The translations under genes and the position numbers were made by a program. Source: Owenia fusiformis (lineage: Eukaryota; Annelida; Polychaeta; Sabellida; Oweniidae). Taken from it: a stretch of DNA of 64,000 nucleotides. Location: positions 10,607,730 through 10,671,729 of the forward strand of contig CAIIXF020000007.1 in the NCBI GenBank assembly GCA_903813345.2. The letters run 5' to 3'. Under the pieces are notes generated by a model. That model worked only from the letters and a program-made list of their open reading frames with translations. It searched no databases and had not been told where the DNA came from. The stretch's first letter is position 1. Each line of letters starts with the position of its first letter. Of the stretch, positions 8,797 to 64,000 are shown piece by piece.

Positions 8797-9409
8797 ATGT
8801 TATACTTCCAACTGTCTGTGATTACATTCTACATATTAAACCCATTTGGGATATCTGCCCAGAATAACAAAGTCATGAATACTTACGTGGATGAAAGATC
8901 CACAAATACTCATTTGAATACTACAGAACGATTGAATAGACTTGAAAGACTGGATTCGATTAATTCAACTAAAACTGCTCTAAAACGACAAACAGCCCGG
9001 ACAAGGCCCCCAGATGTATTCTTGTCAACAAATTGGATTTATCAAACACAATTGGTCTCATCATTGACACATAAATTATCAAGTGATAAGGATTTCCATG
9101 AAAAAATTAGACATAGAGCGAAGAGAGATACTAACCACACAGAAAATATAACGTATGATGTAGAAACTACAAGTGATTTAACTCCCGAGGAAATTGATAC
9201 ACTTGAAAATGGAACTAGTGGATCACCTACAACGGACCCTAGTAATAATAAGGAAGATACTAGCAGTTACTCTCCTAAAACAGAGCCTGGCACTACTGAG
9301 GAAGATATTATTAGTGATTCACCTACAACTGAGAGGAGTACTACTGTGGGAGAAAATTCGAATGACCCACTTACAACAAAGCTTGGTACGACTGGGAAGT
9401 TTATTACTG
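8797..9409 (+). CDS. giant mucin-like secreted protein, exon 1 (signal peptide, propeptide, first repeats)
   Basis: Encodes residues 1-204 plus the first base of codon 205. Residues 1 to about 21 form a hydrophobic signal peptide ending GISAQ, so the product enters the secretory pathway. A basic, Asn/Thr-rich segment follows and ends in RAKR (107-110), a furin-type R-X-K-R site before Asp111. Five N-X-S/T sequons are visible (near 41, 56, 113, 117, 138). From about residue 142 a divergent 16-residue repeat begins, marked by Pro at 144, 160, 176 and 191. No Cys. The start is chosen because an in-frame TAG lies 57 bp upstream and the signal peptide follows directly. The donor CTG|GTGAGT at 9410 is near-ideal and leaves phase 1; reading on would meet a stop at 9457. 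Expression and cleavage are inferred. Confidence 0.8.
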
Positions 9410-10480
9410 GTGAGTTACCCAAAACAGAGTATGATACTATTTATACCTATAACCAGTGACCCATTTGCAACAATAGCTAGCAATTAGTATGTTGTAATTA
9501 TCATATCATTCACATCGATTCATTTAATTATAACTCGTCCAATGACACAAATAACACTAAACAAACAATATCGGTTGGGCTTAATCATTTTGAGTGCATT
9601 TTCACTTTTCATTCTCAAAGATTTCAAAATGCGCCCTAACACATATCCAGGTTTTACACTACATATTCAAAAACCGTATGAACAATAATTATCTTATTTA
9701 ACACAGGGTGGGAGGGAGTGGTTCAAAATCAAAACTCAAACTGACGTAACCAAAGAGAGATCACAAGTGTAAATATAAGTAGATGCTATACAAGGAGAAT
9801 GGCAAGAATATACTAGTATCGCCCGTTAAATAAAAAATCAACTCATTTACATAAATATACCACATTTTCTCGGCTGCTTGCCTTTATCTTTGCTTTCAAC
9901 AACTGTCCCTTGTGCATAAACCTTAATATCATTCCCTTCATTCCTACAAAGCCACACAATAATGGATAAATCATATTTAGATGGTTATTCTATTTAACGT
10001 TTTTCCTGATAGTTCATGAGAAGTTTCTTTTTAGGGATCATATACCAATTTTGGTGTGTATACGTCAGAGTAAATGATATTAAAGTATTGATGAGGTATC
10101 ATGAAAATAAACATGAGGTCACAAAAATATGATTTAGATTCATGAAAACCATTATCATTACATTAATTCAAAACTTTCTAAAAACATGTTTATTACAGGT
10201 TTAATTGATGAACACAAAATGTCTTTCTCATTTAATGAAAACTAGGAGTAGATTAAAATTGCAAAACAATTATCAAGTATTTTCATTACATTATCTCAAA
10301 GTTAAATTAACCATAACATAGCTGTATAAAGATTTATATTCACACGGTGTAAAACAAAAATACGATGACAAAGAGTGCAAATGAAAATTGTCTAAATATG
10401 TGAAATTGTAAATAATCATACAAAATATAATTTCAGTGAATCCTAGAACAATTTTCACAAAATGCAACATGTTATTTCAG
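9410..10480 (+). other. intron 1 (GT-AG, phase 1)
   Basis: Donor GTGAGT at 9410 and acceptor TTATTTCAG ending at 10480. The single base left by exon 1 (G) joins AG of exon 2 to give GAG, and the repeat register continues: KFIT, then ETNSTTNAEF, matches VTSETDSTTNAEV later in exon 2. A second acceptor-like site, ATAATTTCAG ending at 10436, aligns with the acceptor of intron 2 but cannot reach the long frame, because TAG follows at 10444 in that frame and the phase-1 reading is one base off. The first about 80 bp (9410-9490) resemble the end of exon 2, and much of the rest resembles intron 2. Confidence 0.75.
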
Positions 10481-13400
10481 AGACAAACAGTACAACTAAT
10501 GCTGAATTCACAACTGATGTTACTTCAGAGACAGACACTACAACTGATGGTGAGGTAACAACTGATGTTACTTCAGAGACAGTCACTACAACTGATGGTG
10601 AGGTCTCAACTGATGTTACTTCAAAGACAGTCACTATTACTGATGGTGAGGTAACAACTGATGTTACATCAGAGACAGTCACTACAACTGATGGTGAGGT
10701 AATAATTGATGGTACTACAGAGACAGTCACTACAACTGATGATGAGGTCACAACTGATGTTACTACAGAGACAGTCTCTACAACTAATGGTGAGGTAACA
10801 CCTGATGTTACTACAGAGACAATCACTACAACTGATACTGAGGTCTCAACTGATGTTATATCAGAGACAGGCACTACAACTGATGCTGAGGTCACAACTG
10901 ATGTTACTACAGAGACAGTCACTACAACTGAAGGTGAGGTTACAACTGATATTACTACAGAGACAGTCACTACAACCGATGGTGAGGTAACAACTGATGT
11001 TACATCAGAGACAGTCCCTACAACTGATGGTAAGGTCTCAACTAATGTTACTTTAGAGACAGTCACTACAACTGATGGTGAGGTAACAACTGATGTTACT
11101 TCAGAGACAGTCACTACAACTGATGGTGAGGTAACAACTGATGTTACATCAGAGACAGTCACTACAACTGATGGTGAGGTAACAACTGATGTTACTTCAG
11201 AGACAGTCACTACAACTGATAGTGAGGTAAAAACTGATGTTACATCAGAGACAGTCACTACAACTGATGGTGAGGTAACAACTGATGTTACATCAGAGAC
11301 AGTCACTACAACTGATGGTGAGGTAACAACTGATGTTACATCAGAGACAGTCACTTTAACTGATGGTGAGGTAACAACTGATGTTACTACAGAGGCAGTC
11401 ACTACAACTGATGGTGAGGTCTCAACTGATGTTACATCAGAGACAGTCACTACAACTGATGGTGAGGTCTCAACTGATGTTACTACAGAGACAGTCACTA
11501 CAACTGATGGTGAGGTCTCAACTGATGTTACATCAGAGACAGTCACTACAACTGATGGTGAGGTAACAACTGATGCTACATCAGAGACATTCACTACAAC
11601 TGATGGTGAGGTCTCAACTGATTTTACTACAGAGACAGTCACTACAACTGATGGTGAGGTCACAACTGATGTTACTACAGAGACAGTCACTGCAACTGAT
11701 GGTGAGGTCTCAACTGATGTTACATCAGAGACAGTCACTTCATCTGATGGTGAGGTCTCAACTGATGTTACTACAGAGACAGTCACTACAACTGATGGTG
11801 AGGTCACAACTGACGTTACTACAGAGACAGTCACTACAACTGATGGTGAGGTCACAACTGATGATACTACAGAGACAGACAGTACAACTGATGGTGAGGT
11901 AACAACTGATGTTACATCAGAGACAGTCACTACAACTGATGGTGAGGTCTCAACTGATGTTACATCAGAGACAGTCACTTCATCTAATGGTGAGGTTTCA
12001 ACTGATGTTACTACAGAGACAGTCATTACAACCGATGGTGAGGTAACAACTGATGTTACTACAGAGACAGTCACTACAACTGATGGTGAGGTAACAACTG
12101 ATGCTACATCAGAGACAGTCATTACAACTGATGGTGAGGTAACAACTGATGTTACTGCAGAGACAGTCACTACAACTGATGGTGAGGTCACAACTGATGT
12201 TACTACAGAGACAGACAGTACAACTGATGGTGAGGTCTCAACTGATGTTACATCAGAGACAGTCACTACAACTGATGCTGAGGTCACAACTGATGTTACT
12301 ACAGAGACAGTCACTACAACTGATGGTGAGGTCACAACTAATATTACTACAGAGACAGTCACTACAACTGATGGTGAGGTAACAACTTATTTTACTTCAG
12401 AGACAGACAGTACAACTGATGGTGAGGTCTCAACTGATGTTACATCAGAGACAGTCACTACAACTGATGGTGAGTTAACAACTGATGTCACTACAGAGAC
12501 AGTCACTTCAACTTATGGTGAGGTAACAACTGATGTCACAACAGAGACAGTCACTACAACTGATACTGATGTCACAACTGATGTAACTTCAGATAGAGTC
12601 CCTACAACTGATGGTGAATTCTCAACTGATGTTACTACAGAGACAGTCACTTCAACTGATGGTGAGGTGACAACTGATGTTACTTCAGATAGAGTCCCTA
12701 CAACTGATGGTGAGGTAACACCTGATGTTACTTCAGAGACAGTCACTACAACTGATGGTGAGGTCTCAACTGATGTTACATCAGAGACAGTCACTACAAC
12801 TGATACTGAGGTCACAACTGATGTTACTTCAGAGACAGTCACTACAACTGATGGTGAGGTCTCAACTGATGTTACATCAGAGACAGTCACTACAACTGAT
12901 GGTGAGGTAACAACTGATGTTACTACAGAGACAGTCATTACAACTGATGGTGAGTTCACAACTGATGTTACTACAGAGACAGACAGTACAACTGATGGTG
13001 AGGTCTCAACTGATGTTACATCAGAGACAGTCACTACAACTGATGCTGAGGTCACAACTGATGTTACTACAGAGACAGTCACTACAACTGATGGTGAGGT
13101 CACAACTAATGTTACTACAGAGACAGTCACTACAACTGATGGTGAGGTAACAACTTATTTTACTACAGAGACAGTCACTACAACTGATGGTGAGGTCACA
13201 ACTAATGTTACTACAGAGACAGTCACTACAACTGATGGTGAGGTAACAACTTATTTTACTTCAGAGACAGACAGTACAACTGATGGTGAGGTCTCAACTG
13301 ATGTTACATCAGAGACAGTCACTACAACTGATGGTGAGTTAACAACTGATGTCACTACAGAGACAGTCACTTCAACTTATGGTGAGGTAACAACTGATGT

Positions 13401-16400
13401 CACAACAGAGACAGTCACTACAACTGATACTGATGTCACAACTGATGTAACTTCAGATAGAGTCCCTACAACTGATGGTGAATTCTCAACTGATGTTACT
13501 ACAGAGACAGTCACTTCAACTGATGGTGAGGTGACAACTGATGTTACTTCAGATAGAGTCCCTACAACTGATGGTGAGGTAACACCTGATGTTACTTCAG
13601 AGACAGTCACTACAACTGATGGTGAGGTGTCAACTGATGTTACATCAGAGACAGTCACTACAACTGATACTGAGGTCACAACTGATGTTACTTCAGAGAC
13701 AGTCACTACAACTGATGGTGAGGTCTCAACTGATGTTACATCAGAGACAGTCACTACAACTGATGGTGAGGTAACAACTGATGCTACATCAGAGACAGTC
13801 ACTACAACTGATACTGAGGTCACAACTGATGTTACTTCAGAGACAGTCACTACAACTGATGGTGAGGTCTCAACTAATGTTACTACAGAGACAGTCACTA
13901 CAACTGATACTGAGGTCACAACTGATGTTACATCAGAGACAGTCACTTCATCTGATGGTGAGGTCTCAACTGATCTTACTACAGAGACAGTCACTACAAC
14001 TGATGGTGAGGTCACAACTGATGTTACTACAGAGACAGTCACTACAACGGATGGTGAGGTCACAACTGATGTTACTACAGAGACAGACAGTACAACTGAT
14101 GGTGAGGTAACAACTGATGTTACACCAGAGACAGTCATTACAACTGATGGTGAGGTAACAACTGATGTTACATCAGAGACAGTCACTACAACTGATGGTG
14201 AGGTAACAACTGATGTTACTACAGAGGCAGTCATTACAACTGATGGTGAGGTCTCAACTGATGTTACATCAGAGACAGACAGTACAACTGATGGTGAGGT
14301 CTCAACTGATGTTACTACAGAGACAGTCACTACAACTGATGGTGAGGTCTCAACTGATGTTACATCAGAGACAGTCACTACAACTGATGGTGAGGTAACA
14401 ACTGATGTTACTACAGAGGCAGTCACTACAACTGATGGTGAGGTCTCAACTGATGTTACATCAGAGACAGACAGTACAACTGATGGTGAGGTCTCAACTG
14501 ATGTTACTACAGAGACAGTCACTACAACTGATGGTGAGGTCTCAACTGATGTTACATCAGAGACAGTCACTACAACTGATGGTGAGGTAACAACTGATGC
14601 TACATCAGAGACATTCACTACAACTGATGGTGAGGTCTCAGCTGATTTTACTACAGAGACAGTCACTACAACTGATGGTGAGGTCACAACTGATGTTACT
14701 ACAGAGACAGTCACTGCAACTGATGGTGAGGTCTCAACTGATGTTACATCAGAGACAGTCACTTCATCTGATGGTGAGGTCTCAACTGATGTTACTACAG
14801 AGACAGTCACTACAACTGATGGTGAGGTCACAACTGATGTTACTACAGAGACAGTCACTACAACTGATGGTGAGGTCACAACTGATGATACTACAGAGAC
14901 AGACAGTACAACTGATGGTGAGGTAACAACTGATGTTACATCAGAGACAGTCACTACAACTGATGGTGAGGTCTCAACTGATGTTACATCAGAGACAGTC
15001 ACTTCATCTAATGGTGAGGTTTCAACTGATGTTACTACAGAGACAGTCATTACAACCGATGGTGAGGTAACAACTGATGTTACTACAGAGACAGTCACTA
15101 CAACTGATGGTGAGGTAACAACTGATGCTACATCAGAGACAGTCATTACAACTGATGGTGAGGTAACAACTGATGTTACTACAGAGACAGTCACTACAAC
15201 TGATGGTGAGGTCACAACTGATGTTACTACAGAGACAGACAGTACAACTGATGGTGAGGTCTCAACTGATGTTACATCAGAGACAGTCACTACAACTGAT
15301 GCTGAGGTCACAACTGATGTTACTACAGAGACAGTCACTACAACTGATGGTGAGGTCACAACTAATGTTACTACAGAGACAGTCACTACAACTGATGGTG
15401 AGGTAACAACTTATTTTACTTCAGAGACAGACAGTACAACTGATGGTGAGGTCTCAACTGATGTTACTACAGAGACAGTCACTACAACTGATGGTGAGGT
15501 TTCAACTGATTTTACTACAGAGACAGTCACTACAACTGATGCTGAGGTCACAACTGATGTTACTACAGAGACAGTCACTACAACTGATGGTGAGGTCTCA
15601 ACTGATGTAACATCAGAGACAGTAACTTCATCTGATGGTGAGGTCTTAACTGATGCTACTACAGAGACAGTCACTACAACTGATGGTGAGGTCACAACTG
15701 ATGTTACTACAGAGACAGTCACTACAACTGATGGTGAGGTCACAACTTATGTTACTACAGAAACAGACAGTACAACTGATGGAGAGGTAACAACTGATGT
15801 TACATCAGAGACAGTCATTACAACTGATGGTGAGGCAACAACTGATGTTACTACAGAGACAGTCACTACAACTGATGGTGAGGTCTCAACTGATGTTACT
15901 TCAGAGACAGACAGTACGACTGATGTTGAGGTCTCAACTGATGTTACATCAGAGACAGTCACTACAACTGATGCTGAGGTCACAACTGATGTTACTACAG
16001 AGACAGTCACTACAACTGATGGTGAGGTCACAACTGATATTACTACAGAGACAGATAATACAACTGATGGTGAGGTAACAACTGATGTTACATCAGAGAC
16101 AGTCACTTCATCTGATGGTGAGGTCTCAACTGATGTTTCTACAGAGACAGTCACTACAACTGATGGTGAGGTCACACCTATTGTTACTACAGAGACAGTC
16201 ACTACAACTGATGGTGAGGTCACAACTGATGTTACTACAGAGACAGTCACTACAACTGATGGTGAGGTCACAACTGATGATACTACAGAGACAGACAGTA
16301 CAACTGATGGTGAGGTAACAACTGATGTTACATCAGAGACAGTCACTACAACTGATGGTGAGGTCTCAACTGATGTTACATCAGAGACAGTCACTTCATC

Positions 16401-19400
16401 TAATGGTGAGGTTTCAACTGATGTTACTACAGAGACAGTCATTACAACCGATGGTGAGGTAACAACTGATGTTACTACAGAGACAGTCACTACAACTGAT
16501 GGTGAGGTAACAACTGATGCTACATCAGAGACAGTCATTACAACTGATGGTGAGGTAACAACTGATGTTACTACAGAGACAGTCACTACAACTGATGGTG
16601 AGGTCACAACTGATGTTACTACAGAGACAGACAGTACAACTGATGGTGAGGTCTCAACTGATGTTACATCAGAGACAGTCACTACAACTGATGCTGAGGT
16701 CACAACTGATGTTACTACAGAGACAGTCACTACAACTGATGGTGAGGTCACAACTAATGTTACTACAGAGACAGTCACTACAACTGATGGTGAGGTAACA
16801 ACTTATTTTACTTCAGAGACAGACAGTACAACTGATGGTGAGGTCTCAACTGATGTTACTACAGAGACAGTCACTACAACTGATGGTGAGGTTTCAACTG
16901 ATTTTACTACAGAGACAGTCACTACAACTGATGCTGAGGTCACAACTGATGTTACTACAGAGACAGTCACTACAACTGATGGTGAGGTCTCAACTGATGT
17001 AACATCAGAGACAGTAACTTCATCTGATGGTGAGGTCTTAACTGATGCTACTACAGAGACAGTCACTACAACTGATGGTGAGGTCACAACTGATGTTACT
17101 ACAGAGACAGTCACTACAACTGATGGTGAGGTCACAACTGATGTTACTACAGAAACAGACAGTACAACTGATGGAGAGGTAACAACTGATGTTACATCAG
17201 AGACAGTCATTACAACTGATGGTGAGGCAACAACTGATGTTACTACAGAGACAGTCACTACAACTGATGGTGAGGTCTCAACTGATGTTACTTCAGAGAC
17301 AGACAGTACGACTGATGTTGAGGTCTCAACTGATGTTACATCAGAGACAGTCACTACAACTGATGCTGAGGTCACAACTGATGTTACTACAGAGACAGTC
17401 ACTACAACTGATGGTGAGGTCACAACTGATATTACTACAGAGACAGATAATACAACTGATGGTGAGGTAACAACTGATGTTACATCAGAGACAGTCACTT
17501 CATCTGATGGTGAGGTCTCAACTGATGTTTCTACAGAGACAGTCACTACAACTGATGGTGAGGTCAAAACTGATTTTACTACAGAGAGAGTCACTACAAC
17601 TGATGGTGAGGTCACACCTATTGTTACTACAGAGACAGACAGTACAACTGATGGTGAGGTAACAACTGATGTTACATCAGAGACAGTCATTACAACAGAT
17701 GGTGAGGTAACAACTGATGTTACTTCAGAGACAGTCACTACAACTGATGGTGAGGTCTCAGCTGATGTTACATCAGAGGCAGTCACTACAACTGATGCTG
17801 AGGTCACAACAGATGTTACTACAGAGACAGTCACTACAACTGATGGTGAGGTCACAACTGATGTTACATCACAGACAGTCACTGCAACTGATGGTGAGGT
17901 CTCAACTGATGCTACATCAGAGACATTCACTACAACTGATACTGAGGTCACAACTGATGTTACTTCAGAGACAGTCACTACAACTGATGTTGAGGTCTCA
18001 ACTGATGTTACTACAGAGACAGTCACTACAACTGATGGTAAGGTAACAACTGATGTTACATCAGAGACAGACAGTACAACTGATGGTGAGGTCTCAACTG
18101 ATGTTACTACAGAGACAGTCACTACAACTGATGGTGAGGTCTCAACTGATGTTACATCAGACACAGTCACTACAACTGATGCTGAGGTCACAACTGATGT
18201 TACTACAGAGACAGTCACTACAACTGATGGTGAGGTCAAAACTTATGTTACTACAGAGACAGTCACTTCATCTGATGGTGAGGTAACAACTGATGTTACA
18301 TCAGAGACAGATAGTACAACTGATGGTGAGGTAACAACTGATGTTACATCAGAGACAGTCACTTCATCTGATGGTGAGGTCTCAACTGATGTTACTACAG
18401 AGACAGTCCCTACAACTGATGGTGAGGTCTCAGCTGATGTTACATCAGAGACAGTCACTACAACTGATAGTGAGGTCACAACTGATGTTACTACAGAGAC
18501 AGTCACTACAACTGATGCTGAGGTCACAACTGATGTTACTACAGAGACAGTCACTACAACTGATGGTGATGTAACAACTGATGTTACTACAGAGGCAGTC
18601 ACTACAACTGATGGTGAGGTAACAACTGATGTTACATCAGAGACAGACAGTACAACTGATGGTGAGGTCTCAACTGATGTTACTACAGAGACAGTCACTA
18701 CAACTGATGGTGAGGTCTCAACTGATGTTACTACAGAGACAGTCACTACAACTGATGCTGAGGTCACAACTGATGTTACTACAGAGACAGTCACTACAAC
18801 TGATGGTGAGGTAACAACTGATGTTACTACAGAGACAGTCACTACAACTGATGGTGAGGTATCAACTTATGTTACTTCAGATAGAGTCCCTACAACTGAT
18901 GGTGAGGTAACAACTGATCTTACTACAGAGACAGTCACTACAACTGATGGTGAGGTCACAACTGATGTTACATCAGAGACAGTCACTACAACTGATGCTG
19001 AAGTCACAACTGATGATACTACAGAGACAGTCACTACAACTGATGGTGAGGTAACAACTGATGTTACTACAGAGGCAGTCACTACAACTGATGGTGAGGT
19101 AACAACTGATGTTACATCAGAGACAGACAATACAACTGATGGTGAGGTTTCAACTGATGTTACTACAGAGACAGTCACTACAACTGATGGTGAGGTCTCA
19201 ACTGATGTTACATCAGAGACAGTCACTACAACTGATGCTGAGGTCACAACTGATGTTACTACAGAGACAGTCACTACAACTGATGGTGATGTAACAACTG
19301 ATGTTACTACAGAGACAGTCACTACAACTGATGGTGAGGTCTCAACTGATGTTACATCGGAGATAGTCACTACAACTGATACTGAGGTCACAACTGATGT

Positions 19401-22400
19401 TACTACAGAGATAGTCACTACAGCTGATGGTGAGGTCACAACTGATGTTACTACAGAGACAGTCACTACAACTGATGGTGAGGTCTCAACTTATGTTACA
19501 TCGGAGACAGTCACTTCAACTGATACTGAGGTCACAACTGATGTAACTTCAGATATAGTCCCTACAACTGATGGTGAGGTTACAACTGATGTTACTACAG
19601 AGACAGTCACTACAGCTGATGGTGAGGTCACAACTGATGTTACTTCAGAGACAGTCACTACAACTGATGGTGAGGTAAAAACTGATGTTACTACAGAGAC
19701 AATCCCTACAACTGATGGTGGGGTCTCAACTGATGTTACATCAGAGACAGTCACTACAACTGATGGTGAGATCTCAACCGATGTTACATCAGAGGCAGTC
19801 ACTAGAACTGATGGTGAGGTCTCAACTGATTTTACTTCAGAGACAGACAGTACAACTGATGGTGAGGTCTCAGCTGAGGTCACAACAGATGTTACTACAG
19901 AGACAGTCACTACAACTGATGGTGAGGTCACAACTGATGTTACATCAGAGACAGTCACTACAACTGATGGTGAGGTAACAACTGATGTTACTACAGAGGC
20001 AGTCACTACAACTGATGGTGAGGTCACAACTGATGTTACATCAGAGACAGTCACTTCATCTGATGGTGAGGTCTCAACTGATGTTACATCAGAGACAGTC
20101 ACTACAACTGATGCTGAGGTCACAACTGATGTTACATCACAGACAGTCACTACAACTGATGGTGAGGTCTCAACTGATGCTACATCAGAGACATTCACTA
20201 CAACTGATACTGAGGTCACAACTGATGTTACTTCAGAGACAGTCACTACAACTGATGGTGAGGTCTCAACTGATGTTACTACATACAGAGTCCCTACAAC
20301 TGATGGTGAGGTAACAACTGATTCTACTACAGAGACAGTCACTACAACTGGTGGTGAGGTCACAACTGATGTTACTTCAGAGACAGTCACTACAACTGAT
20401 GGTGAGGTAAAAACGGATGTTACTACAGAGACAGTCACTACAACTGATGGTGAGGTCTCAACTGATGTTACTACAGAGACAGTCACTACAACTGATGGTG
20501 AGGTAACAACTGATGTTACATCAGAGACAGTCACTACAACTGATGGTGAGGTAACAACTGATGTTACTTCAGAGACAGTCACTACAACTGATAGTGAGGT
20601 AAAAACGGATGTTACTACAGAGACAGTCACTACAACTGATGGTGAGGTCTCAACTGATGTTACTACAGAGACAGTCACTACAACTGATGGTAAGGTAACA
20701 ACTGATGTTACATCAGAGACAGTCACTACAACTGATGGTGAGGTAACAACTGATGTTACATCAGAGACAGACAGTACAACTGATGGTGAGGTCTCAACTG
20801 ATGTTACATCAGAGACAGTCACTACAACTGATGCTGAGGTCACAACTGATGTTACTACAGAGACAGTCACTACAACTGATGGTGAGGTCACAACTTATGT
20901 TACTACAGAGACAGATAGTACAACTGATGGTGAGGTAACAACTGATGTTACATCAGAGACAGTCACTTCATCTGATGGTGAGGTCTCAACTGATGTTACT
21001 ACAGAGACAGTACCTACAACTGATGGTCAGGTCTCAGCTGATGTTACATCAGAGACAGTCACTACAACTGATGCTGAGGTCACAACTGATGTTACTACAG
21101 AGACAGTCACTACAACTGATGGTAATGTAACAACTGATGTTACTACAGAGGCAGTCACTACAACTGATGGTGAGGTGACAACTGATGTTACATCAGAGAC
21201 GGACAGTACAACTGATGGTGAGGTCTCAACTGATGTTACTACAGAGACAGTCACTACAACTGATGGTGAGGTCTCAACTGATGTTACATCAGAGACAGTC
21301 ACTACAACTGATGCTGAAGTCACAACTGATGTTCTTACAGAGACAGTCACTACAACTAATGGTGAGGTCACAACTGATGTTACTACAGAGACAGTCACTA
21401 CAGCTGATGGTGATGTAACAACTGATGTTACTACAGAGGCACTCACTACAACTGATGGTGAGGTAACAACTGATGTTACATCAGAGACAGTCACTACAAC
21501 TGATGCTGAGGTCAAAACTGATGTTACTTCAGAGACAGTCACTACAACTGATGCTGAGGTCACAACTGATGTTACTTCAGAGACAGTCACTACAACTGAT
21601 GGTGAGGTCTCAACTGATTTAACTTCAGAGACAGACAGTACAACTGATGGTGAGGTCTCAACTGATGTTACATCAGAGACAGTCACTACAACTGATGGTG
21701 AGGTAAAGACTGATGCTACTACAGAGGCAGTCGCCACAACTGATGGTGAGGTAACAACTGATGTTACATCAGAGACAATCACTACAACTGATGCTGAGGT
21801 CACAACTGATGTTACTACAGAGACAGTCACTACAACTGATGGTGATGTAACAACTGATGTTACTACAGAGGCAGTCACTACAACTGATGGTGAGATAACA
21901 ACTGATGTTACATCAGAGACAGACAGTACAACTGATACTGAGGTCACAACTGATGTTACTTCAGATAGAGTCCCTACAACTGATGGTGATGTAATAACTG
22001 ACGTTACTACAGAGACAGTCACTACAACAGATGGTGAGGTAACAACTGATGTTACTACAGAGACAGTCACTAGAACTGATACTGAGGTCATAACTGATGC
22101 TACTTCAGATAGAGTCCCTACAACTGATGGTGAGGTAACAACTGATGTTACTACAGAGACAGTCACTACAACTGATGGTGATGTCTCAACTGATGTTACA
22201 TCGGAGACAGTCACTACAACTGATACTGAGGTCACGACTGATGTAACTTCAGGTATAGTCCCTACAACTGATGGTGAGGCTACAACTGATGTTACTACAG
22301 AGACGGTCACTACAGCTGATGGTGAGGTCACAACTGATGTTACTACATATAGAGTCCCTACAACTGATGGTGAGGTAACAACTGATGCTACTATAGAGAC

Positions 22401-51200: not shown

Positions 51201-54200
51201 TGATATCCAATCCACTTCTGTTACATTTGAGACAGTCACTGCAACAGATGCTGATATCCAATCCACGGATGTAACATCTGAGACAGTCACTACAACTGAT
51301 GCTGATATTCAATCCACTACTGTTACATCTGAGACGGTCACTGCAACAGATGCTGAGATCCAATCAACTGCTGTTACATCTGAGACAGTCACTGCAACAG
51401 ATGCTGATATCCAATCCACTGATGTTACATCTGAGACAGTCACTGCAACGGATGCTGATATCCAATCCACTTCTGTTACATTTGAGACAGTCACTGCAAC
51501 AGATGCTGATATCCAATCCACTGATGTTACATCTGAGAAAGTCACTGCAACAGATGCTGATATCCAATACACTGATGTAACATCTGAGATAGTCACTACA
51601 ACGGATGCTGATATCCAATCCACTGATGTTACATCCGAGACAGTTACTGCAACAGATGCTGATATCCAATCCACTGATGTTACATCTGAGACAGTCACTG
51701 CAACAGATGCTGATATCCAATCCAATACTGTTACATCTGAGACAGTCACTACAACAGATGCTGATATCCAATCCACTACTGTTACATCTGAGACAGTCAC
51801 AGCAACATATGCTGATATCCAATCCACGGGTTTAACATCTGAGACAGTCACTACAACAGATGCTGATATTCAATCCACTGATGTTACATCTGAGATAGTC
51901 ACTGCAACTATTGCTGATATCCAATCCACTGATGTTACATCTGACACAGTCACTGCAATTGAGGATGATATCCAATCCACTGATGTTACATCTGAGACAG
52001 TCACTGCCACATATGCTGATATCCAGTCCACTGATGTTACATCTGAGACAGTCACTGCAACTATTGCTGATATCCAATCCACTGATGTTACATCTGACAC
52101 AGTCACTGCAATTGAGGATGATATCCAATCCACTGATGTTACATCTGAGACAGTCACTGCCACATATGCTGATATCCAGTCCACTGATGTTACATCTGAG
52201 ACAGTCACTACAACAGATGCTGATATTCAATCCACTGATGTTACATCTGAGATAGTCACTGCAACTATTGCTGATATCCAATCCACTGATGTTACATCTG
52301 ACACAGTCACTGCAATTGAGGATGATATCCAATCCACTGATGTTACATCTGAGACAGTCACTGCCACATATGCTGATATCCAGTCCACTGATGTTACATC
52401 TGAGACAGTCACTGCAACTGATGCTAATATCCAATCCACTGATGTTACATCTGAGAAAGTCACTGCAACGGATGCTGATATCCAATCCACTGATGTTACA
52501 CCTGAGAAAGTCACTGCAACAGATGCTGATATCCAATCCACTGATGTTACATCCGAGACGGTTACTGCAACAGATGCTGATATCCAATTCACTGATGTAA
52601 CATCTGAGACAGTCACTGCAACAGATGCTGATATCCAATCCACGGATGTTACATCTGAGACAGTCACTGCAACTGATGCAGATATTCAATCCACTGATGC
52701 TACATTTGAGACGGTCACTGCAACAGATGCTGATATCCAATCCACTGCTGGTACATCTGAGATGGTCACTGCAACGGATGTTGATATCGAATCCATTACT
52801 GTTACATCTGAGACAGTCACTGCAACGGATGCTGATATCCAATCCACTTCTGTTACATTTGAGACAGTCACTGCAACAGATGCTGATATCCAATCCACGG
52901 ATGTAACATCTGAGACAGTCACTACAACTGATGCTGATATTCAATCCACTACTGTTACATCTGAGACGGTCACTGCAACAGATGCTGAGATCCAATCAAC
53001 TGCTGTTACATCTGAGACAGTCACTGCAACAGATGCTGATATCCAATCCACTGATGTTACATCTGAGACAGTCACTGCAACGGATGCTGATATCCAATCC
53101 ACTTCTGTTACATTTGAGACAGTCACTGCAACAGATGCTGATATCCAATCCACTGATGTTACATCTGAGAAAGTCACTGCAACAGATGCTGATATCCAAT
53201 ACACTGATGTAACATCTGAGATAGTCACTACAACGGATGCTGATATCCAATCCACTGATGTTACATCCGAGACAGTTACTGCAACAGATGCTGATATCCA
53301 ATCCACTGATGTTACATCTGAGACAGTCACTGCAACAGATGCTGATATCCAATCCAATACTGTTACATCTGAGACAGTCACTACAACAGATGCTGATATC
53401 CAATCCACTACTGTTACATCTGAGACAGTCACAGCAACATATGCTGATATCCAATCCACGGGTTTAACATCTGAGACCGTCACTACAACAGATGCTGATA
53501 TTCAATCCACTGATGTTACATCTGAGATAGTCACTGCAACTATTGCTGATATCCAATCCACTGATGTTACATCTGACACAGTCACTGCAATTGAGGATGA
53601 TATCCAATCCACTGATGTTACATCTGAGACAGTCACTGCCACATATGCTGATATCCAGTCCACTGATGTTACATCTGAGACAGTCACTGCAACTATTGCT
53701 GATATCCAATCCACTGATGTTACATCTGACACAGTCACTGCAATTGAGGCTGATATCCAATCCACTGATGTTACATCTGAGACAGTTACTGCAACAGATG
53801 CTGATATCCAATTCACTGATGTAACATCTGAGACAGCCACTGCAACGGATGCTGATATCCAATCCACTGATGTTACATCCGAGACGGTTACTGCAAAAGA
53901 TGATGATATCCAATCAACTGCTGTTACATCTGAGACAGTCACTGCAACAGATGCTGATATCCAATCAACTGCTGTTACATCTGAGACAGTCACTGCAACA
54001 GATGCTGATATCCAATTCACTGATGTAACATCTGAGACAGTCACTGCAACAGATGCTGATATCCAATTCACTGATGTAACATCTGAGACAGTCACTGCAA
54101 CAGATGCTGATATCCAATTCACTGATGTAACATCTGAGACAGTCACTGCAACGGATGCTGATATCCAATCCACTGATGTTACATCCGAGACGGTCACTGC

Positions 54201-57200
54201 AACAGATGCTGATATCCGATCCACTGATGTTACATCTGAGTCGGTCACTGCAACGGATGCTGACATCCAATCCACGGATGTAACATCTGAGACAGTCACT
54301 ACAACGGATGCTGATATCCAATCCACTACTGTTACATCTGAGACAGTCACTACAACGGATGCTGATATCCAATCCACTTCTGTTACATTTGAGACAGTCA
54401 CTGCAACAGATGCCGATATCCAATCAACTGCTGGTACATCTGAGACAGTCACTGCAACAGATGCTGATATCCAATCCACTGATGTTACATCTGAGAAAGT
54501 CACTGCAACAGATGCTGATATCCAATTCACTGATGTAACATCTGAGACAGTCACTGCAACGGATGCTGATATCCAATCCACTTCTGTTACATATGTGACG
54601 GTCACTGCAACTGATGCTGATATTCAATCCACTGATGTTACATCTGAGAAAGTCACTGCAACAGATGCTGATATCCAATTCACTGATGTAACATCTGAGA
54701 CAGTCACTGCAACGGATGCTGATATCCAATCCACTGATGTTACATCCGAGACGGTTACTGCAACAGTTGCTGATATCCAATCAACTGCTGTTACATCTGA
54801 GACAGTCACTGCAACAGATGCTGATATCCAATTCACTGATGTAACATCTGAGACAGTCACTGCAACAGATGCTGATATCCAATTCACTGAGGTAACATCT
54901 GAGACAGTCACTGCAACGGATGCTGATATCCAATCCACTGATGTTACATCCGAGACGGTTACTGCAACAGATGCTGATATCCAATTCACTGATGTAACAT
55001 CTGAGACAGTCACTGCAACAGATGCTGATATCCAATTCACTGATGTAACATCTGAGACAGTTACTGCAACAGATGCTGATATCCAATTCACTGATGTAAC
55101 ATCTGAGACAGCCACTGCAACGGATGCTGATATACAATCCACTGATGTTACATCCGAGACGGTTACTGCAAAAGATGATGATATTCAATCAACTGCTGTT
55201 ACATCTGAGACAGTCACTGCAACAGATGCTGATATCCAATCAACTGCTGTTTCATCTGAGACAGTCACTGCAACAGATGCTGATATCCAATTCACTGATG
55301 TAACATCTGAGACAGTCACTGCAACAGATGCTGATATCCAATTCACTGATGTAACATCTGAGACAGTCACTGCAACAGATGCTGATATCCAATTCACTGA
55401 TGTAACATCTGAGATAGTCACTGCAACGGATACTGATATCCAATCCACTGATGTTACATCCGAGACGGTTACTGCAACAGATGATGATATCCAATCAACT
55501 GCTGTTACATCTGAGACAGTCACTGCAACAGATGCTGATATCCAATCAACTGCTGTTACATCTGAGACAGTCACTGCAACAGATGCTCATATCCAATCCA
55601 CTGATGTTACATCTGAGACAGTCACTGCAACTGATGCTAATATCCAATCCACTGATGTTACATCTGAGAAAGTCACTGCAACGGATGCTGATATCCAATC
55701 CACTGATGTTACATCTGAGAAAGTCACTGCAACAGATGCTGATATCCAATCCACTGATGTTACATCTGAGACAGTCACTGCAACTGATGCTGATATCCAA
55801 TCCACTGATGTTACATCTGAGACGGTCACTGCAACTGATGTTGATATCGAATCCACTGATGTTACATCTGAGTCGGTCACTGCAACGGATGCTGACATCC
55901 AATCCACGGATGTTACATCTGAGACAGTCACTGCAACAGATGCTGATATCCAATCCACGGATGTTACATCTGAGACAGTCACTACAACGGATGCTGATAT
56001 CCAATCCACTACTGTTACATCTGAGACAGTCACTACAACGGATGCTGATATCCAATCCACTTCTGTTACATTTGAGACAGTCACTGCAACAGATGTTGAT
56101 ATCCAATCCACGGATGTTACATCTGAGACAGTCACTGCAACGGATGCTGATATCAAATCTACTAATTTCACATCTGAGACAGTCACTGCAACTGATGCTG
56201 ATATCCAATCTTCTACTTTTATATCTGAGACGGTCACTGCAACTGATGCTGATATCCAATCCACTGATGTTACATCTGAGACAGTCACTGCAACGGATGC
56301 TGATATCCAATCCACTACTGTTACATCTGAGACAGTCACTGCAACAGATGCTGATATCCAATCCACTACTGTTACATCTGAGACGGTCACTGCGACGGAT
56401 GCTGATATCCAATCCACTGATGTTACATCTGAGACGGTCACTGCAACGGATGTTGATATCCAATCCACTGATGTTACATCTGAGACAGTCACTGCAACAG
56501 ATGCTGATATCCAATCCACTAATGTTACATCTGAGACAGTCACTGCAACGGATGCTGATATCCAACCCACTACTGCTACATCTGAGACAGTCACTGCAAC
56601 AGATGCTGATATCCAATCCACTACTGTTACATCTGAGACAGTCACTGCAACAGATGCTGATATCCAATCCACTACTGTTACATCCGAGACAGTCACTGCA
56701 ACGGATGCTGATATCCAATCCACTACTGTTACATCTGAGACAGTCACTGCAACGGATGCTGATATCCAATCCACGGATGTAACATCTGAGACAGTCACTG
56801 CAACTGATGCTGATATTCAATCCACTACTGTTACATTTGAGACGGTCACTGCAACGGATGCTGATATTCAATCCACTGATGTTACATCTGAGACAGTCAC
56901 TGCAACTGATGCTGATATCCAATCCACTGATGTTACATCTGAGACAGTCACTGCAACTGATGCTGATATTCAATCCACTACTGTTACATTTGAGACGGTC
57001 ACTGCAACGGATGCTGATATTCAATCCACTGATGTTACATCTGAGACAGTCACTGCAACTGATGCTGATATCCAATCCACTGATGTTACATCTGAGACAG
57101 TCACTGCAACTGATGCTGATATCCAATCCACTGATGTTACATCTGAAACAGTCACTGTAACGGATGCTGATATCCAATCCACTGATGTTACATCTGAGAC

Positions 57201-60200
57201 AGTCACTGCAACTGATGCTGATATCCAATCCACTGATGTTACATCTGAAACAGTCACTGTAACGGATGCTGATATCCAATCCACTGATGTTACATCTGAG
57301 ACGGTCACTGCAACGGATGCTGATATCCAATCCACTGATGTTACATCTGAGACGGTCACTGCAACGGATGTTGATATCCAATCCACTGATGTTACATCTG
57401 AGACAGTCACTGCAACTGATGTTGATATCCAATCCACTGATGTTACATCTGAGACGGTCACTGCAACGGATGTTGATATCCAATCCACTGATGTTACATC
57501 TGAGACAGTCACTGCAACTGATGTTGATATCCAATCCACTACTGTTACATCTGTGACAGTCACTGCAACGGATGCTGATATCCAATCCAGTACTGTTACA
57601 TCTGAGACAGTCACTGCAACGGATATTGATATCCAATCCACTGATGTTACATCTGAGACAGTCACTACAACGGATGCTGATATCCAATCCACTACTGTTA
57701 CATCTGAGACAGTCACTACAACGGATTCTGATATCCAATCCACTTCTGTTACATTTGATACAGTCACTGCAACAGATGCCGATATCCAATCAACTGCTGG
57801 TACATCTGAGACAGTCACTGCAACAGATGCTGATATCCAATCCACTGATGTTACATCTGAGAAAGTCACTGCAACAGATGCTGATATCCAATTCACTGAT
57901 GTAACATCTGAGACAGTCACTGCAACGGATGCTGATATCCAATCCACTTCTGTTACATATGTGACGGTCACTGCAACTGATGCTGATATTCAATCCACTG
58001 ATGTTACATCTGAGACAGTCACTGCAACAGATGCTGATATCCAATCCACTGATGTTACATCTGAGAAAGTCACTGCAACAGATGCTGATATCCAATTCAC
58101 TGATGTAACATCTGAGACAGTCACTGCAACGGATGCTGATATCCAATCCACTGATGTTACATCCGAGACGGTTACTGCAACAGATGCTGATATCCAATCA
58201 ACTGCTGTTACATCTGAGACAGTCACTGCAACAGATGCTGATATCCAATTCACTGATGTAACATCTGAGACAGTCACTGCAACAGATGCTGATATCCAAT
58301 TCACTGAGGTAACATCTGAGACAGTCACTGCAACGGATGCTGATATCCAATTCACTGATGTAACATCTGAGACAGTCACTGCAACAGATGCTGATATCCA
58401 ATTCACTGAGGTAACATCTGAGACAGTCACTGCAACAGATGCTGATATCCAATTCACTGATGTAACATCTGAGACAGTTACTGCAACAGATGCTGATATC
58501 CAATTCACTGATGTAACATCTGAGACAGTCACTGCAACTGATGCTGATATTCAATCCACTACTGTTACATCTGAGACGGTCACTGCAACGGATGCTGATA
58601 TCCAATCCACCGATGTTACATCCGAGACGGTTACTGCAAAAGATGATGATATCCAATCAACTGCTGTTACATCTGAGACAGTCACTGCAACAGATGCTGA
58701 TATCCAATCAACTGCTGTTACATCTGAGACAGTCACTGCAACAGATGCTGATATCCAATTCACTGATGTAACATCTGAGACAGTCACTGCAACAGATGCT
58801 GATATCCAATTCACTGATGTAACATCTGAGACAGTCACTGCAACATATGCTGATATCCAATTCACTGATGTAACATCTGAGACAGTCACTGCAACGGATG
58901 CTGATATCCAATCCACTGATGTTACATCCGAGACGGTTACTGCAACAGATGATGATATCCAATCAACTGCTGTTACATCTGAAACAGTCACTGCAACGGA
59001 TGCTGATATCCAATCAACTGCTGTTACATCTGAGACAGTCACTGCAACAGATGCTCATATCCAATCCACTGATGTTACATCTGAGACAGTCACTGCAACT
59101 GATGCTAATATCCAATCCACTGATGTTACATCTGAGAAAGTCACTGCAACGGATGCTGATATCCAATCCACTGATGTTACATCTGAGAAAGTCACTGCAA
59201 CAGATGCTGATATCCAATCCACTGATGTTACATCTGAGACAGTCACTGCAACTGATGCTGATATCCAATCCACTGATGTTACATCTGAGACGGTCACTGC
59301 AACTGATGTTGATATCGAATCCACTGATGTTACATCTGAGTCGGTCACTGCAACGGATGCTGACATCCAATCCACGGATGTTACATCTGAGACAGTCACT
59401 GCAACAGATGCTGATATCCAATCCACGGATGAAACATCTGACACAGTCACTACAACGGATGCTGATATCCAATCCACTACTGTTACATCTGAGACAGTCA
59501 CTACAACGGATGCTGATATCCAATCCACTTCTGTTACATTTGAAACAGTCACTGCAACAGATGTTGATATCCAATCCACGGATGTTACATCTGAGACAGT
59601 CACTGCAACGGATGCTGATATCAAATCTACTAATTTCACATCTGAGACAGTCACTACAACGGATGCTGATATCCAATCCACTACTGTTACATCTGAGACA
59701 GTCACTACAACGGATGCTGATATCCAATCCACTTCTGTTACATTTGAAACAGTCACTGCAACAGATGTTGATATCCAATCCACTGATGTTACATCTGAGA
59801 CGGTCACTGCAACGGATGCTGATATCCAATCCACTGATGTTACATCTGAGAAAGTCACTGCAACGGATGCTGATATCCAATCCACTAATGTTACATTTGA
59901 GACAGTCACTGCAACTGATGCTGATATCCAATCTTCTACTTTTATATCTGAGACGGTCACTGCAACTGATGCTGATATCCAATCCACTGATGTTACATCT
60001 GAGACAGTCACTGCAACGGATGCTGATATCCAATCCACTACTGTTACATCTGAGACGGTCACTGCAACAGATGCTGATATCCAATCCACTGATGTTACAT
60101 CTGAGACAGTCACTGCAACAGATGCTGATATCAAATCCACGGATGTTACATCTGAAACAGTCACTTCAACTGATGCTTATATCCAATCCACTGATGTTAC

Positions 60201-63200
60201 ATCTGAGACAGTCACTGCAACAGATGCTGATATCCAATCCACGGATGTAACATCTGAGACTGTCACTACAATGGATGCTGATATCCAATCCACTGATGTT
60301 ACATCTGAGACAGTCACTGAAACGGATGCTGCTATCAAATCCACTGATGTTACATCTGAGACAGTCAGTGCAACAGATGCTGATATCCAATCCACTGATG
60401 TTACATCCGAGACAGTCACTGCAACTGATGCTGATATCCAATCCACTGATGTAACATATGAGACGGTCACTGCAACGGATGCTGATATCCAATCCACTAA
60501 TGTTACATCTGAGACAGTAACTGTAATTGATGCTGATATCCAATCCACTAATGTTACATCTGAGACGGTCACTGCAACTGATGCTGATATCCAATCCATT
60601 GATGTTACATATGAGACGGTCACTGCAACGAATGCTGATATCCAATCCATGGATGTTACATCTGAGACAGTCACTGCAACTGATGCTGATATTCAATCCA
60701 CTGATGTAACATCTGAGACAGTCACTGCAACAGATGCTGATATCCAATCCACTGATGTTACATTTGAGACGGTCACTGCAACGGATGCTGATATCCAATC
60801 CACTGATGTTACATTTGAGACGGTCACTGCAACGGATGCTGATATTCAAACCTCTTATGTTACATCTGAGACGGTCACTGCGACGGATGCTGATATCCAA
60901 CCCACTGATGTTACATCTGAGACGGTCACTGCAACGGATGTTGATATCCAATCCACTACTGTTACATCTGAGACAGTCACTGCAACGGATGCTGACATCC
61001 AATCCACTACTGTTACATCTGAGACAGTCACTGCAACGGATGCTGATATCCAATCCACTGGTGTTACATCTGAGACGGTCACTGCGACGGATGCTGATAT
61101 CCAATCCACTGATGTTACATCTGAGACGGTCACTGCAACGGATTTTGATATCCAATCCACTACAGTTACATCTGTGACAGTCACTGCAACGGATGCTGAT
61201 ATCCAATCCACTACTGTTACATCTGAGACAGTCACTGCAACGGATGTTGATATCCAATCCACTGATGTTACATCTGAGACGGTCACTGCGATGGATGCTG
61301 ATATCCAATCCACTGATGTTACATCTGAGACGGTCACTGCGACGGATGTTGATATCCAATCCACTACTGTTACATCTGTGACAGTCACTGCAACGGATGC
61401 TGATATCCAATCCACTACTGTTACATCTGAGACAGTCACTGCAACGGATGCTGATATCCAATCCACTACTGTTACATCTGAGACAGTCACTGCAACAGAT
61501 GCTGATATCCAATCCACTACTGTTACATCCGAAACAGTCACTGCTGATATCCAATCCACTGATGTTACATTTGAGACGGTCACTGCAACGGATGCTGATA
61601 TCCAATCCACTACTGTTACATCTGAGACAGTCACTGCAACAGATGCTGATATCCAATCCACTACTGTTACATCTGAGACGGTCACTGCGACGGATGCTGA
61701 TATCCAATCCACTGATGTTACATCTGAGACGGTCACTGCAACGGATGTTGATATCCAATCAACTACTGTTACATCTGAGACAGTCACTGCAACGGATGCT
61801 GATATCCAATCCACTACTCCTACATCTGAGACAGTCACTGCAACAGATGCTGATATCCAATCCACTACTGTTACATCTGAGACAGTCACTGCAACAGATG
61901 CTGATATCCAATCCACTACTGTTACATCCGAGACAGTCACTGCAACGGATGCTGATATCCAATCCACTACTGTTACATCTGAGACAGTCACTGCAACGGA
62001 TGCTGATATCCAATCCACGGATGTAACATCTGAGACAGTCACTGCAACTGATGCTGAGATTCAATCCACTACTGTTACATTTGAGACGGTCACTGCAACG
62101 GATGCTGATATTCAATCCACTGATGTAACATCTGAGACAGTCACTGCAACGGATGCTGATATCCAATCCACGGATGTAACATCTGAGACAGTCACTGCAA
62201 CTGATGCTGATATTCAATCCACTACTGTTACATTTGAGACAGTCACTGCAACGGATGCTGATATTCAATCCACTGATGTTACATCTGAGACAGTCACTGC
62301 AACTGATGCTGATATCCAATCCACTGATGTTACATCTGAGACAGTCACTGCAACTGATGCTGATATTCAATCCACTACTGTTACATTTGAGACGGTCACT
62401 GCAACGGATGCTGATATTCTATCCACTGATGTTACATCTGAGACAGTCACTGCAACTGATGCTGATATCCAATCCACTGATGTTACATCTGAGACAGTCA
62501 CTGCAACTGGTGCTGATATCCAATCCACTGATGTTACATCTGAAACAGTCACTGTAACGGATGCTGATATCCAATCCACTACTGTTACATCTGAGACAGT
62601 CACTGCAACTGATGCTGATATCCAATCCACTGATGTTACATCTGAAACAGTCACTGTAACGGATGCTGATATCCAATCCACTGATGTTACATCTGAGACG
62701 GTCACTGCAACGGATGCTGATATCCAATCCACTGATGTTACATCTGAGACGGTCACTGCAACGGATGTTGATATCCAATCCACTGATGTTACATCTGAGA
62801 CAGTCACTGCAACTGATGTTGATATCCAATCCACTGATGTTACATCTGAGACGGTCACTGCAACGGATGTTGATATCCAATCCACTGATGTTACATCTGA
62901 GACAGTCACTGCAACTAATGTTGATATCCAATCCACTACTGTTACATCTGTGACAGTCACTGCAACGGATGCTGATATCCAATCCACTACTGTTACATCT
63001 GAGACAGTCACTGCAACAGATGCTGATATCCAATCCACTACTGTTACATCCGAAACAGTCACTGCTGATATCCAATCCACTGATGTTACATTTGAGACGG
63101 TCACTGCAACGGATGCTGATTTTCAATCCACTTCTGTTACATCTGAGACAGTCACTGCAACAGATGCTGATATCCAATCCACTACTGTTACATCTGAGAC

Positions 63201-64000
63201 GGTCACTGCGACGGATGCTGATATCCAATCCACTGATGTTACATCTGAGACGGTCACTGCAACGGATGTTGATATCCAATCCACTACTGTTACATCTGAG
63301 ACAGTCACTGCAACGGATGCTGATATCCAATCCACTGATGTTACATCTGAGACAGTCACTGCAACGGATGCTGATATCCAATCCACGGATGTAACATCTG
63401 AGACAGTCACTGCAACTGATGCTGATATTCAATCCACTACTGTTACATTTGAGACGGTCACTGCAACGGATGCTGATATCCAATCCACGGATGTAACATC
63501 TGAGACAGTCACTGCAACTGATGCTGATATTCAATCCACTACTGTTACATTTGAGACGGTCACTGCAACGGATGCTGATATTCAATCCACTGATGTAACA
63601 TCTGAGACAGTCACTGCAACGGATGCTGATATCCAATCCACTGATGTTACATCTGAGACGGTCACTGCAACGGATGCTGATATCCAATCCACTACTGTTA
63701 CATCTGAGACAGTCACTGCAACAGATGCTGATATCCAATCCACTACTGTTACATCTGAGACGGTCACTGCGACGGATGCTGATATCCAATCCACTGATGT
63801 TACATCTGAGACGGTCACTGCAACGGATGTTGATATCCAATCCACTAGTGTTACATCTGAGACAGTCACTGCAACGGATGCTGATATCCAATCCACTGAT
63901 GTTTCATCTGAGACGGTCACTGCAACGGATGTTGATATCCAATCCACTACTGTTACATCTGAGACAGTCACTGCAACGGATGCTGATATCCAATCCACTG
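33254..64000 (+). CDS. giant mucin-like secreted protein, exon 3 (51-bp coding minisatellite, runs off window)
   Basis: Opens after the acceptor at 33253 with VDHATIITEVTSNTIDITDAD and about 75 divergent residues, then becomes tandem 17-residue repeats with consensus TDADIQSTDVTSETVTA (5 Thr, 2 Ser, 4 acidic). The frame set at codon 33256 is the frame still in use at 63961 (10,235 codons later), and I saw no stop. That makes 30,747 bp of uninterrupted exon with no end in view, about 600 units. Joined to exons 1 and 2, the visible protein is about 17,620 residues. No Cys seen. Role inferred: extended, O-glycosylated, polyanionic extracellular domain. C-terminal domains, anchor and stop lie outside the window. 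Predicted Met-initiated frames reading MLISNPLMLHLRQSLQ are out-of-frame shadows. Confidence 0.85.
37820..41185 (+). repeat. 1,683-bp (33-unit) tandem duplication inside exon 3
   Basis: 37820-39502 and 39503-41185 are almost the same. Markers: GCTGTTATCCAATCC at 37888 and 39571, and the VRSEAVT variant (GTTAGATCTGAGGCG) at 37960, 38164, 39643 and 39847. The 204-bp spacing within each copy shows an older 4-unit duplication nested in the 33-unit one. Confidence 0.85.
41860..53820 (+). repeat. complex higher-order repeat field inside exon 3
   Basis: The rare variant GGGTTTAACATCTGAG (Thr-Gly-Leu in place of Thr-Asp-Val) occurs at 44943, 46575, 47901, 49584, 50145, 51828 and 53460. The spacings are 1632, 1326, 1683, 561, 1683 and 1632 bp, which are 32, 26, 33, 11, 33 and 32 units. 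Other variants (ATCGAATCCATTACTGTT, GCTGAGATCCAATCA, GCAATTGAGGATGAT) move with it in mixed blocks, as expected from repeated unequal exchange. Confidence 0.85.
55440..60250 (+). repeat. 3,468-bp-offset block duplication inside exon 3
   Basis: The stretch from about 55440 to 56220 recurs from about 58908, offset 3,468 bp (68 units), including the ATTTCACATCTGAG variant (56165, 59633), the TCTTCTACTTTTATATCTGA variant (56210, 59933) and the doubled GAGAAAGTC units. Interleaved differences show later small insertions. Confidence 0.7.

Follow-up and report, generated by a model that had tools for sequence, protein, structure and literature searches.

The analysed stretch of the annelid Owenia fusiformis genome, hereafter the window, comprises 64,000 nucleotides (nt), corresponding to positions 10,607,730-10,671,729 of contig C7 (39.8 Mb; assembly of 498 Mb in 525 contigs). 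It holds the 5' half of a giant gene on the + strand, which probably encodes a type I membrane-tethered mucin of approximately 35,487 residues. The original prediction was of a secreted mucin-like protein of more than 17,600 residues with only three visible exons. The giant open frames are real and the coordinates of these three exons are exact: their window parts (613 + 21,510 + 30,747 nt) translate into 17,623 residues without any stop codon. The predicted size thus stands for the window, but it underestimates the protein, as the window cuts the gene approximately in half. We extended the gene model through 200 kb fetched to the right of the window, a stretch without any N, in which the numbering of the window is carried on past 64000 (continued coordinates). 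The extended model contains 12 exons rather than three and spans 8797 to 129,911, with its right half outside the window. The exons sum to 106,464 nt, corresponding to 35,487 residues and a stop codon, and to a mass of 3.65 MDa for the unglycosylated protein (Table 1).

Table 1. Features of the giant mucin gene in window coordinates, continued past 64000
Feature	Position	Strand	Content
Exon 1	8797..9409	+	Start codon, signal-peptide-like stretch MLYFQLSVITFYILNPFGISA, non-repeat N-terminal region, RHRAKR, onset of Thr-rich region
Intron 1	9410..10480	+	Phase 1; partly homologous to intron 2
Exon 2	10481..31990	+	21,510 nt; 16-residue units EVTTDVTTETVTTTDG; 443 units detected
Intron 2	31991..33253	+	Phase 1; contains palindromic mobile element
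Exon 3	33254..68377 (window part 33254..64000)	+	35,124 nt; 17-residue units TDADIQSTDVTSETVTA; 684 units detected
Exon 4	69506-71212 (continued coordinates)	+	Repeat exon, diverged 11/22-residue pattern
Exon 5	72811-91947 (continued coordinates)	+	23-residue repeat units
Exon 6	93777-96017 (continued coordinates)	+	23-residue repeat units
Exon 7	97541-105814 (continued coordinates)	+	23-residue repeat units
Exon 8	109455-126365 (continued coordinates)	+	Mixed repeats, weaker 23-residue period
Exon 9	126698-126810 (continued coordinates)	+	Non-repeat C-terminal part
Exon 10	128406-128691 (continued coordinates)	+	Non-repeat C-terminal part
Exon 11	129105-129260 (continued coordinates)	+	Six cysteines, EGF-like
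Exon 12	129520-129911 (continued coordinates)	+	Last exon, closes protein

The two junctions in the window read GTGAGT at 9410 and ...TTTCAG at 10480, and GTAAAT at 31991 and ...TTTCAG at 33253, and are compatible phase-1 junctions, as was first proposed. A mechanical list of open reading frames independently contains the frames 10447-31998 (7,183 amino acids) and 33226 to beyond 64000, and the repeat arrays were also detected by Tandem Repeats Finder. All 11 introns of the extended model are GT-AG introns and frame-compatible; intron 9 is in phase 0 and the other ten are in phase 1. Seven repeat exons of 1.7-35.1 kb (exons 2-8) are followed by four ordinary exons that end the protein, and the sole stop in the spliced frame is its last codon. 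We infer that all exons are joined in one transcript. The seven repeat exons are all symmetric (phase 1-1) with lengths divisible by three, so exon skipping could yield many shorter products.

With 11,360 Thr and 3,811 Ser residues, Ser+Thr make up 42.7% of the protein, in line with its initial description as mucin-like, and Asp+Glu and Lys+Arg account for 21.5% and 1.6%, respectively. Ser+Thr amounts to at least 40% in 265 of 354 windows of 100 residues. Proline makes up 0.6% of the residues encoded by exon 2, 0.1% of those encoded by exon 3 and 5-6% of those from exons 4, 5 and 8. Since exons 2 and 3 are nearly free of proline, about half of the repeat region is Thr-acidic rather than of the classic Pro-Thr-Ser (PTS) type. 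When a PTS window was defined by Ser+Thr of at least 40% and Pro of at least 5%, 66 of the 354 windows qualified: none in exons 2 (0/71), 3 (0/117) and 4 (0/6), 43/64 in exon 5, 4/7 in exon 6, 6/28 in exon 7 and 13/56 in exon 8.

The open frame reflects more than chance, as nonsense changes that would be expected among the repeat units are absent. We counted single-nucleotide codon changes between distinct units in exons 2, 3, 5 and 7, excluding units less than half like the consensus, and obtained 784, 775, 1,004 and 418 changes, respectively. Approximately 25, 12, 14 and 4 nonsense changes were expected (about 54 in total) and none was observed, the zero being taken from the translation of the spliced frame. 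The ratio of nonsynonymous to synonymous changes (N/S) in exons 3, 5 and 7 was 0.87, 1.40 and 1.70 versus expected values of 2.43, 2.62 and 2.41, indicating a depletion of nonsynonymous changes. The repeat units are related by duplication, and the codon changes are therefore not independent. In a second count, in which each kind of change was counted only once, the kinds of nonsense change observed were 0/2, 0/2, 0/3, 0/3, 0/3 and 0/6 in exons 2, 3, 5, 6, 7 and 8, and the kinds of sense change were 100/142, 112/151, 130/204, 78/204, 90/204 and 22/201 (p = 0.09, 0.07, 0.05, 0.24, 0.18 and 0.51). No exon was significant alone in this count, and the parsing of exon 8 was poor, with 15 units. A search of the genome with a repeat unit gave at least 176 matches, and all matches listed were located in exon 3; since 150 of 417 candidates were scored, the search is silent on whether such repeats occur elsewhere.

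The ends of the protein differ from the repeat region. The N-terminus is hydrophobic, with a best 10-residue mean hydropathy of 1.73, consistent with the signal peptide that a tethered mucin should have. Only two R-X-[KR]-R sites are present in the whole protein, starting at residues 107 (RAKR, 107-110, within RHRAKR) and 35,240 (RRKKR). All 13 cysteines are located from residue 35,155 onwards. A single membrane-like run, consisting of 18 consecutive 19-residue windows with values above 1.6 (starts 35,360-35,377), is followed by a tail of about 90 residues up to the stop. The C-terminal order is a stub with three cysteines, a SEA-like region encoded by two exons, an EGF-like domain, the membrane segment and the tail. 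The membrane-like run, the furin-type sites and the cysteines thus lie at the places expected of a tethered mucin. Of the features first ascribed to the protein, the signal-peptide-like start and the furin-type site in exon 1 are present, and the description of the remainder as repeats only holds inside the window but not for the last approximately 330 residues. The sequence to the right of 64000, where terminal domains were to be sought, makes the protein look like a tethered rather than a secreted mucin.

Two secreted alternatives were considered. A secreted product was rejected as the principal interpretation, since a membrane-like segment and a tail stand at the end of the frame. The features of a secreted gel-forming mucin do not fit either, as there is no cysteine before residue 35,155 and the C-terminal membrane-like segment is present; a Pfam scan of both non-repeat ends, of one stretch of exon 2 and of one of exon 3 identified no VWD or cystine-knot domains.

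A search of the genome with the C-terminal exons gave 11 matches, four of which represent the gene itself. Another two are located at C7:13.98 Mb, one at C9:2.303 Mb and one at C9:2.356 Mb, and three weaker ones at C9:24.95 Mb, C7:17.44 Mb and C7:11.80 Mb (E 1.3e-5 to 2.6e-4). The loci at C7:13.98, C9:2.303 and C9:2.356 Mb are paralogues with the same order of parts: a Thr-rich stretch, a stub with three cysteines, a SEA-type region and an EGF domain. Inspection by eye placed a phase-0 intron in their SEA-type region after Cys-Ser, and their EGF domain ends with SPDP..pGRKC or nearly so. Two of the three paralogues were seen to continue into a membrane segment, the one at C7:13.98 Mb having been read less far. 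Their Thr-rich stretches, as read, cover about 1.3 kb, about 0.7 kb and at least 0.4 kb (reaching the end of the locus), versus 105 kb in the giant. The Pfam EGF_CA domain scores 29.0 and 34.9 bits in the two paralogues tested, above its cut-off of 27 bits. In the C7:13.98 Mb paralogue, an in-frame TAA was noted by eye inside the Thr-rich part (L033, ~5226), and this may be a decaying or polymorphic copy.

The best place in a genome-wide Pfam search for SEA domains is a mucin at C1:55.21 Mb (SEA 31.6 bits, EGF_CA 44.2 bits). A joint SEA+EGF profile built from the giant and two paralogues aligns to this mucin in hhalign (96%, E 1.6e-9), with the insertion of the giant at the G-S site. The C1 stretch (L041, C1:55209001-55215000) contains a large single-frame Thr-rich mucin with a frame of 2,987 amino acids, in which SEA, EGF and a membrane-like segment lie in one exon. 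Another Thr-rich repeat frame, with TEGVTEATTNVSV units, was observed in L042 (C7:14318001-14324000), where Pfam SEA scores 24 bits, or 30.8 bits with its neighbours.

The paralogues contain the motifs PGSIVV, PGSIIA and PGSIVA at the loop where MUC1-type self-cleavage takes place, so that PGSI[V/I] is found in three of three. The corresponding loop of the giant reads KGGFRRKKRSTVIKNDVIA, in which the contiguous G-S is gone. In the alignment, the giant keeps the G, which is followed by a 13-column insertion containing RRKKR and then by D-V in place of S-I; the G-S-[V/I] motif for self-cleavage is thus absent from this loop of the predicted protein. In human GPR126 and in Notch, furin cuts inside the SEA domain, at the MUC1 self-cleavage loop, and the fragments are described as remaining associated (PMC6954182). 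By analogy, we infer that a furin-type protease may cut the giant at RRKKR. The likeness lies in a furin-type site placed in the SEA loop at which other members self-cleave (PMC6954182); the difference is that GPR126 and Notch are receptors and not mucins, and that cleavage of the giant mucin is a prediction.

Several observations count against a single gene for a tethered mucin with a SEA domain. Splice sites were scored with a generic matrix not fitted to this genome, and GT sites of the same phase were compared over a stretch that starts 300 nt ahead of the exon end and reaches to the in-frame stop. In 9 of 11 introns, the donor of the model had the top score, but introns 2 and 10 have a higher-scoring rival. 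The acceptor at 33254 scores like the median AG of its region, the acceptors at 69506 and 126698 are in the top 23% and 18%, and the donors at 126366 and 71213 are in the top 22% and 16%. Proline is nearly absent from exons 2 and 3, and exon 2 shows no depletion of amino acid changes (N/S 2.66 versus an expected 2.58). The EGF domain of the giant itself falls below the cut-offs (EGF_CA 20.5 bits versus 27; EGF_3 20.9 versus 28.5). The Pfam scan finds no SEA domain in the giant and a sub-threshold one in one of the two paralogues tested (18.7 bits, E 0.002, cut-off 26.4), and neither the giant nor the three paralogues are among the seven places identified by the genome-wide SEA search. A SEA-only profile retrieved no SEA structure from PDB, only unrelated chains at E of 1 or above, and aligned poorly to the C1 mucin (hhalign, 1.9%, 32 columns), so the joint match may rest largely on the EGF part. 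We nevertheless interpret the region as a SEA domain that has diverged, on the combined weight of its position, its partner domains, the place of the intron and the PGSI motif in the paralogues.

The signals near the exon ends also speak for other products. An in-frame stop lies 5 to 104 nt past every donor, and AATAAA occurs in 8 of 11 introns, including one at 68516, 89 nt past the stop that follows exon 3, with a GT-rich stretch behind it as judged by eye. Transcripts might thus end in the intron after a repeat exon and encode shorter secreted Thr-rich proteins, with the tethered form being separate or rare. This alternative comes near to the secreted product first proposed, and we consider it unlikely. 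At this A+T content, AATAAA is expected by chance approximately once per kb by our estimate, and two of the three paralogues could be followed to a membrane segment. Such an arrangement would also leave exons 4-12 without a signal-peptide exon. A first scan for internal first exons (threshold 2.3) gave two forward and no reverse candidates in the introns, but missed exon 1 itself, the hydropathy of which lies below this value, and the threshold was therefore lowered. The second scan gave 16 forward versus 8 reverse candidates in 14,651 nt of introns, none of which was judged convincing, and no forward and seven reverse candidates in 8,700 nt upstream. An improbable alternative to about the same degree is that the locus is one gene that yields its full-length form rarely if at all, the products containing subsets of exons 2-8. 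The symmetry of all seven exons is what a cassette set would have, and length control by splicing was suggested for the multi-exon repeat domain of chicken Muc13 (PMC1552070), but the inclusion of all exons is the simpler default.

Two adjacent genes, one for a secreted Thr-rich protein (exons 1-3) and another for a membrane mucin (exons 4-12 or 8-12) whose first exon escaped detection, would fit the change of unit type from 17 residues in exon 3 to 23 residues in exons 5-7, with the diverged exon 4 in between, and hydrophobic ATG candidates with a phase-1 GT are indeed present in introns 2, 4, 5, 6 and 7. We regard this as very unlikely, given that the exons lie on the same strand in an unbroken chain of phase-1 junctions, that no terminal domain follows exon 3, that intron 3 contains no first-exon candidate and that the longest intron, intron 7, is just 3.6 kb. 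Least probable of all, and only barely conceivable, is a coding satellite or a decayed gene without a product. The dominance of repeats and the neutral-like amino acid changes in exon 2 would agree with it, but there is no stop in 106 kb where the four exons tested alone should have gained about 54 nonsense changes, and the terminal domains have paralogues with common intron positions. One gene for a tethered mucin thus remains the probable interpretation.

The gene appears to have grown in more than one way. Exact duplicates exceeding 800 nt recur at constant spacings in exon 3 (1,683 nt), exon 8 (2,526 nt) and exon 2 (1,392 and 2,178 nt), showing a recent expansion by unequal exchange; exon 7 contains no exact duplicate of 400 nt or more. 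Introns 5 and 6 have five blocks in common, of 49-827 nt with 88-98% identity, plus two short weaker ones, and introns 1 and 2 have three, of 34-130 nt with 73-88% identity. These common blocks indicate that modules of an exon with its intron were also duplicated. The acceptor of exon 2 is located 44 nt further downstream than the position that corresponds by homology to the acceptor of intron 2. As the homologous acceptor would throw exon 2 out of frame, this exon seems to have adopted a new one. The gene may thus have grown by unequal exchange inside exons and by frame-keeping duplication of exon-intron modules, which would also permit splice forms of varied length. A stray 27-nt piece in intron 4 (L002:7734-7760), 96% like the end of exon 3, is apparently a decayed remnant of a repeat.

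A narrow literature search gave no title on annelid mucins among the matches listed. Non-animal proteins such as PKZILLA-1 are larger still than the proteins compared here. In their domain detail, MUC3A, MUC12 and MUC17 have a Cys stub ahead of the SEA domain, and together with MUC13 they resemble the giant in their large Thr/Ser repeats in giant exons, a SEA-type region, EGF, one membrane segment and a short tail. In contrast to these mucins, the repeats of the giant are distributed over seven exons rather than one, exons 2 and 3 are acidic and almost proline-free, and the SEA site lacks a contiguous G-S and has a furin-type insertion instead. For MUC13, PTS, SEA, EGF and membrane parts are described (PMC1552070). 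Chicken Muc13 is likewise a SEA/EGF membrane mucin with a repeat region divided among several exons (PMC1552070), but there each exon is described as one repeat, whereas here the units form arrays, up to hundreds of them within one repeat exon. The longest human MUC12 allele is given as 23,080 residues and its exon as the largest protein-coding exon in some humans (PMC13345508, preprint), compared to 35,487 residues here. The 35-kb exon 3 is no record, since a larger exon must be present in the longest MUC12 alleles, judging from the 55-kb length range in that preprint (PMC13345508). MUC16 (CA125) is likewise giant and tethered, with SEA and a membrane segment; it is called the largest mucin ever discovered with 22,152 residues (PMC11101557) and has multiple SEA domains (PMC1552070), whereas one SEA-type region was seen here. 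Human titin reaches 38,138 residues with all of its exons joined, the largest of which is 17,106 bp (PMC12198301). Titin (connectin) is an intracellular Ig/FN3 muscle protein with 363 exons and unrelated to the giant, with which it shares the size class only. The gene is, as judged from its sequence, an extreme variant of the SEA-EGF tethered mucins; its early placement at titin scale and among the largest mucins holds for the extended model, which lies below the theoretical maximum of titin.

Mobile elements and other features were observed in and around the gene. Inverted arms of about 188 nt in intron 2 (window 32238-33136; arms near 32238-32414 and 32958-33136), 69% alike, are likely to represent a non-autonomous DNA transposon, and intron 7 contains a fragment of a DDE-type transposase (L006:2503-2895; Pfam DDE_3, E 9e-7). 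Upstream of the gene, a palindromic element at window 660-1060, with two long inverted arms round the hairpin '...ccccagctgt...acagctgggg...', is by eye another likely non-autonomous DNA transposon. Two copies of a 'gcgggcagatata...cccgctccgagcgggcagatata'-like block are found by T-rich low-complexity sequence at 6310-6380 and 7250-7320, the second copy identified by eye. Downstream of the mucin gene, a frame at 162609-163163 (continued coordinates) resembles linker histone H1 by eye. Elsewhere in the assembly, C-terminal domains of haemoglobin linkers (Pfam PF16915) exceed the cut-off at three places, with 'Hemoglobin linker 1' as the best PDB match (E 0.0025) and an LDL-receptor-type module noted by eye in the same locus; these hits are a lead towards an annelid origin. 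Searches of the assembly for COX1 and, with no positive control, for mollusc haemocyanin gave no hit.

The order of the protein parts, as shown by the predicted sequence, suggests how the product would work. It would enter the endoplasmic reticulum, and a furin-type protease would remove the N-terminal region at RHRAKR. As many as about 15,000 Thr/Ser residues of the repeats may carry dense O-glycosylation. A furin-type cut inside the SEA-type domain at RRKKR would replace the self-cleavage expected in the paralogues, and both halves would remain bound, displaying a negatively charged brush of several micrometres at the cell surface. Force could shed the brush and leave a stub in the membrane. 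At approximately 0.25 nm per residue, 35,000 residues would form a brush of about 9 micrometres; for the glycocalyx of MUC17, a value of 1 micrometre is reported (PMC12172626). We advance it as a tentative possibility, not as the expected outcome, that a full-length membrane mucin of 35,000 residues is made, that it is the longest mucin known and among the longest proteins of animals, with a brush of about 9 micrometres, and that furin cleavage has taken the place of self-cleavage in its SEA domain, so that proteases of one kind define the mucin region at either end.

If produced as a single chain, the protein would be of titin scale and about half longer than the largest human mucin allele found in print, and would test the length limits of a secretory-pathway protein, of an mRNA (106 kb coding) and of a cell-surface brush. 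The locus also illustrates that a genome window can halve such a gene and give a tethered mucin a secreted appearance. The presence of PGSI in the paralogues and of a furin-type site in the giant offers a comparison within one genome of whether very large mucins need other means of cutting and shedding.

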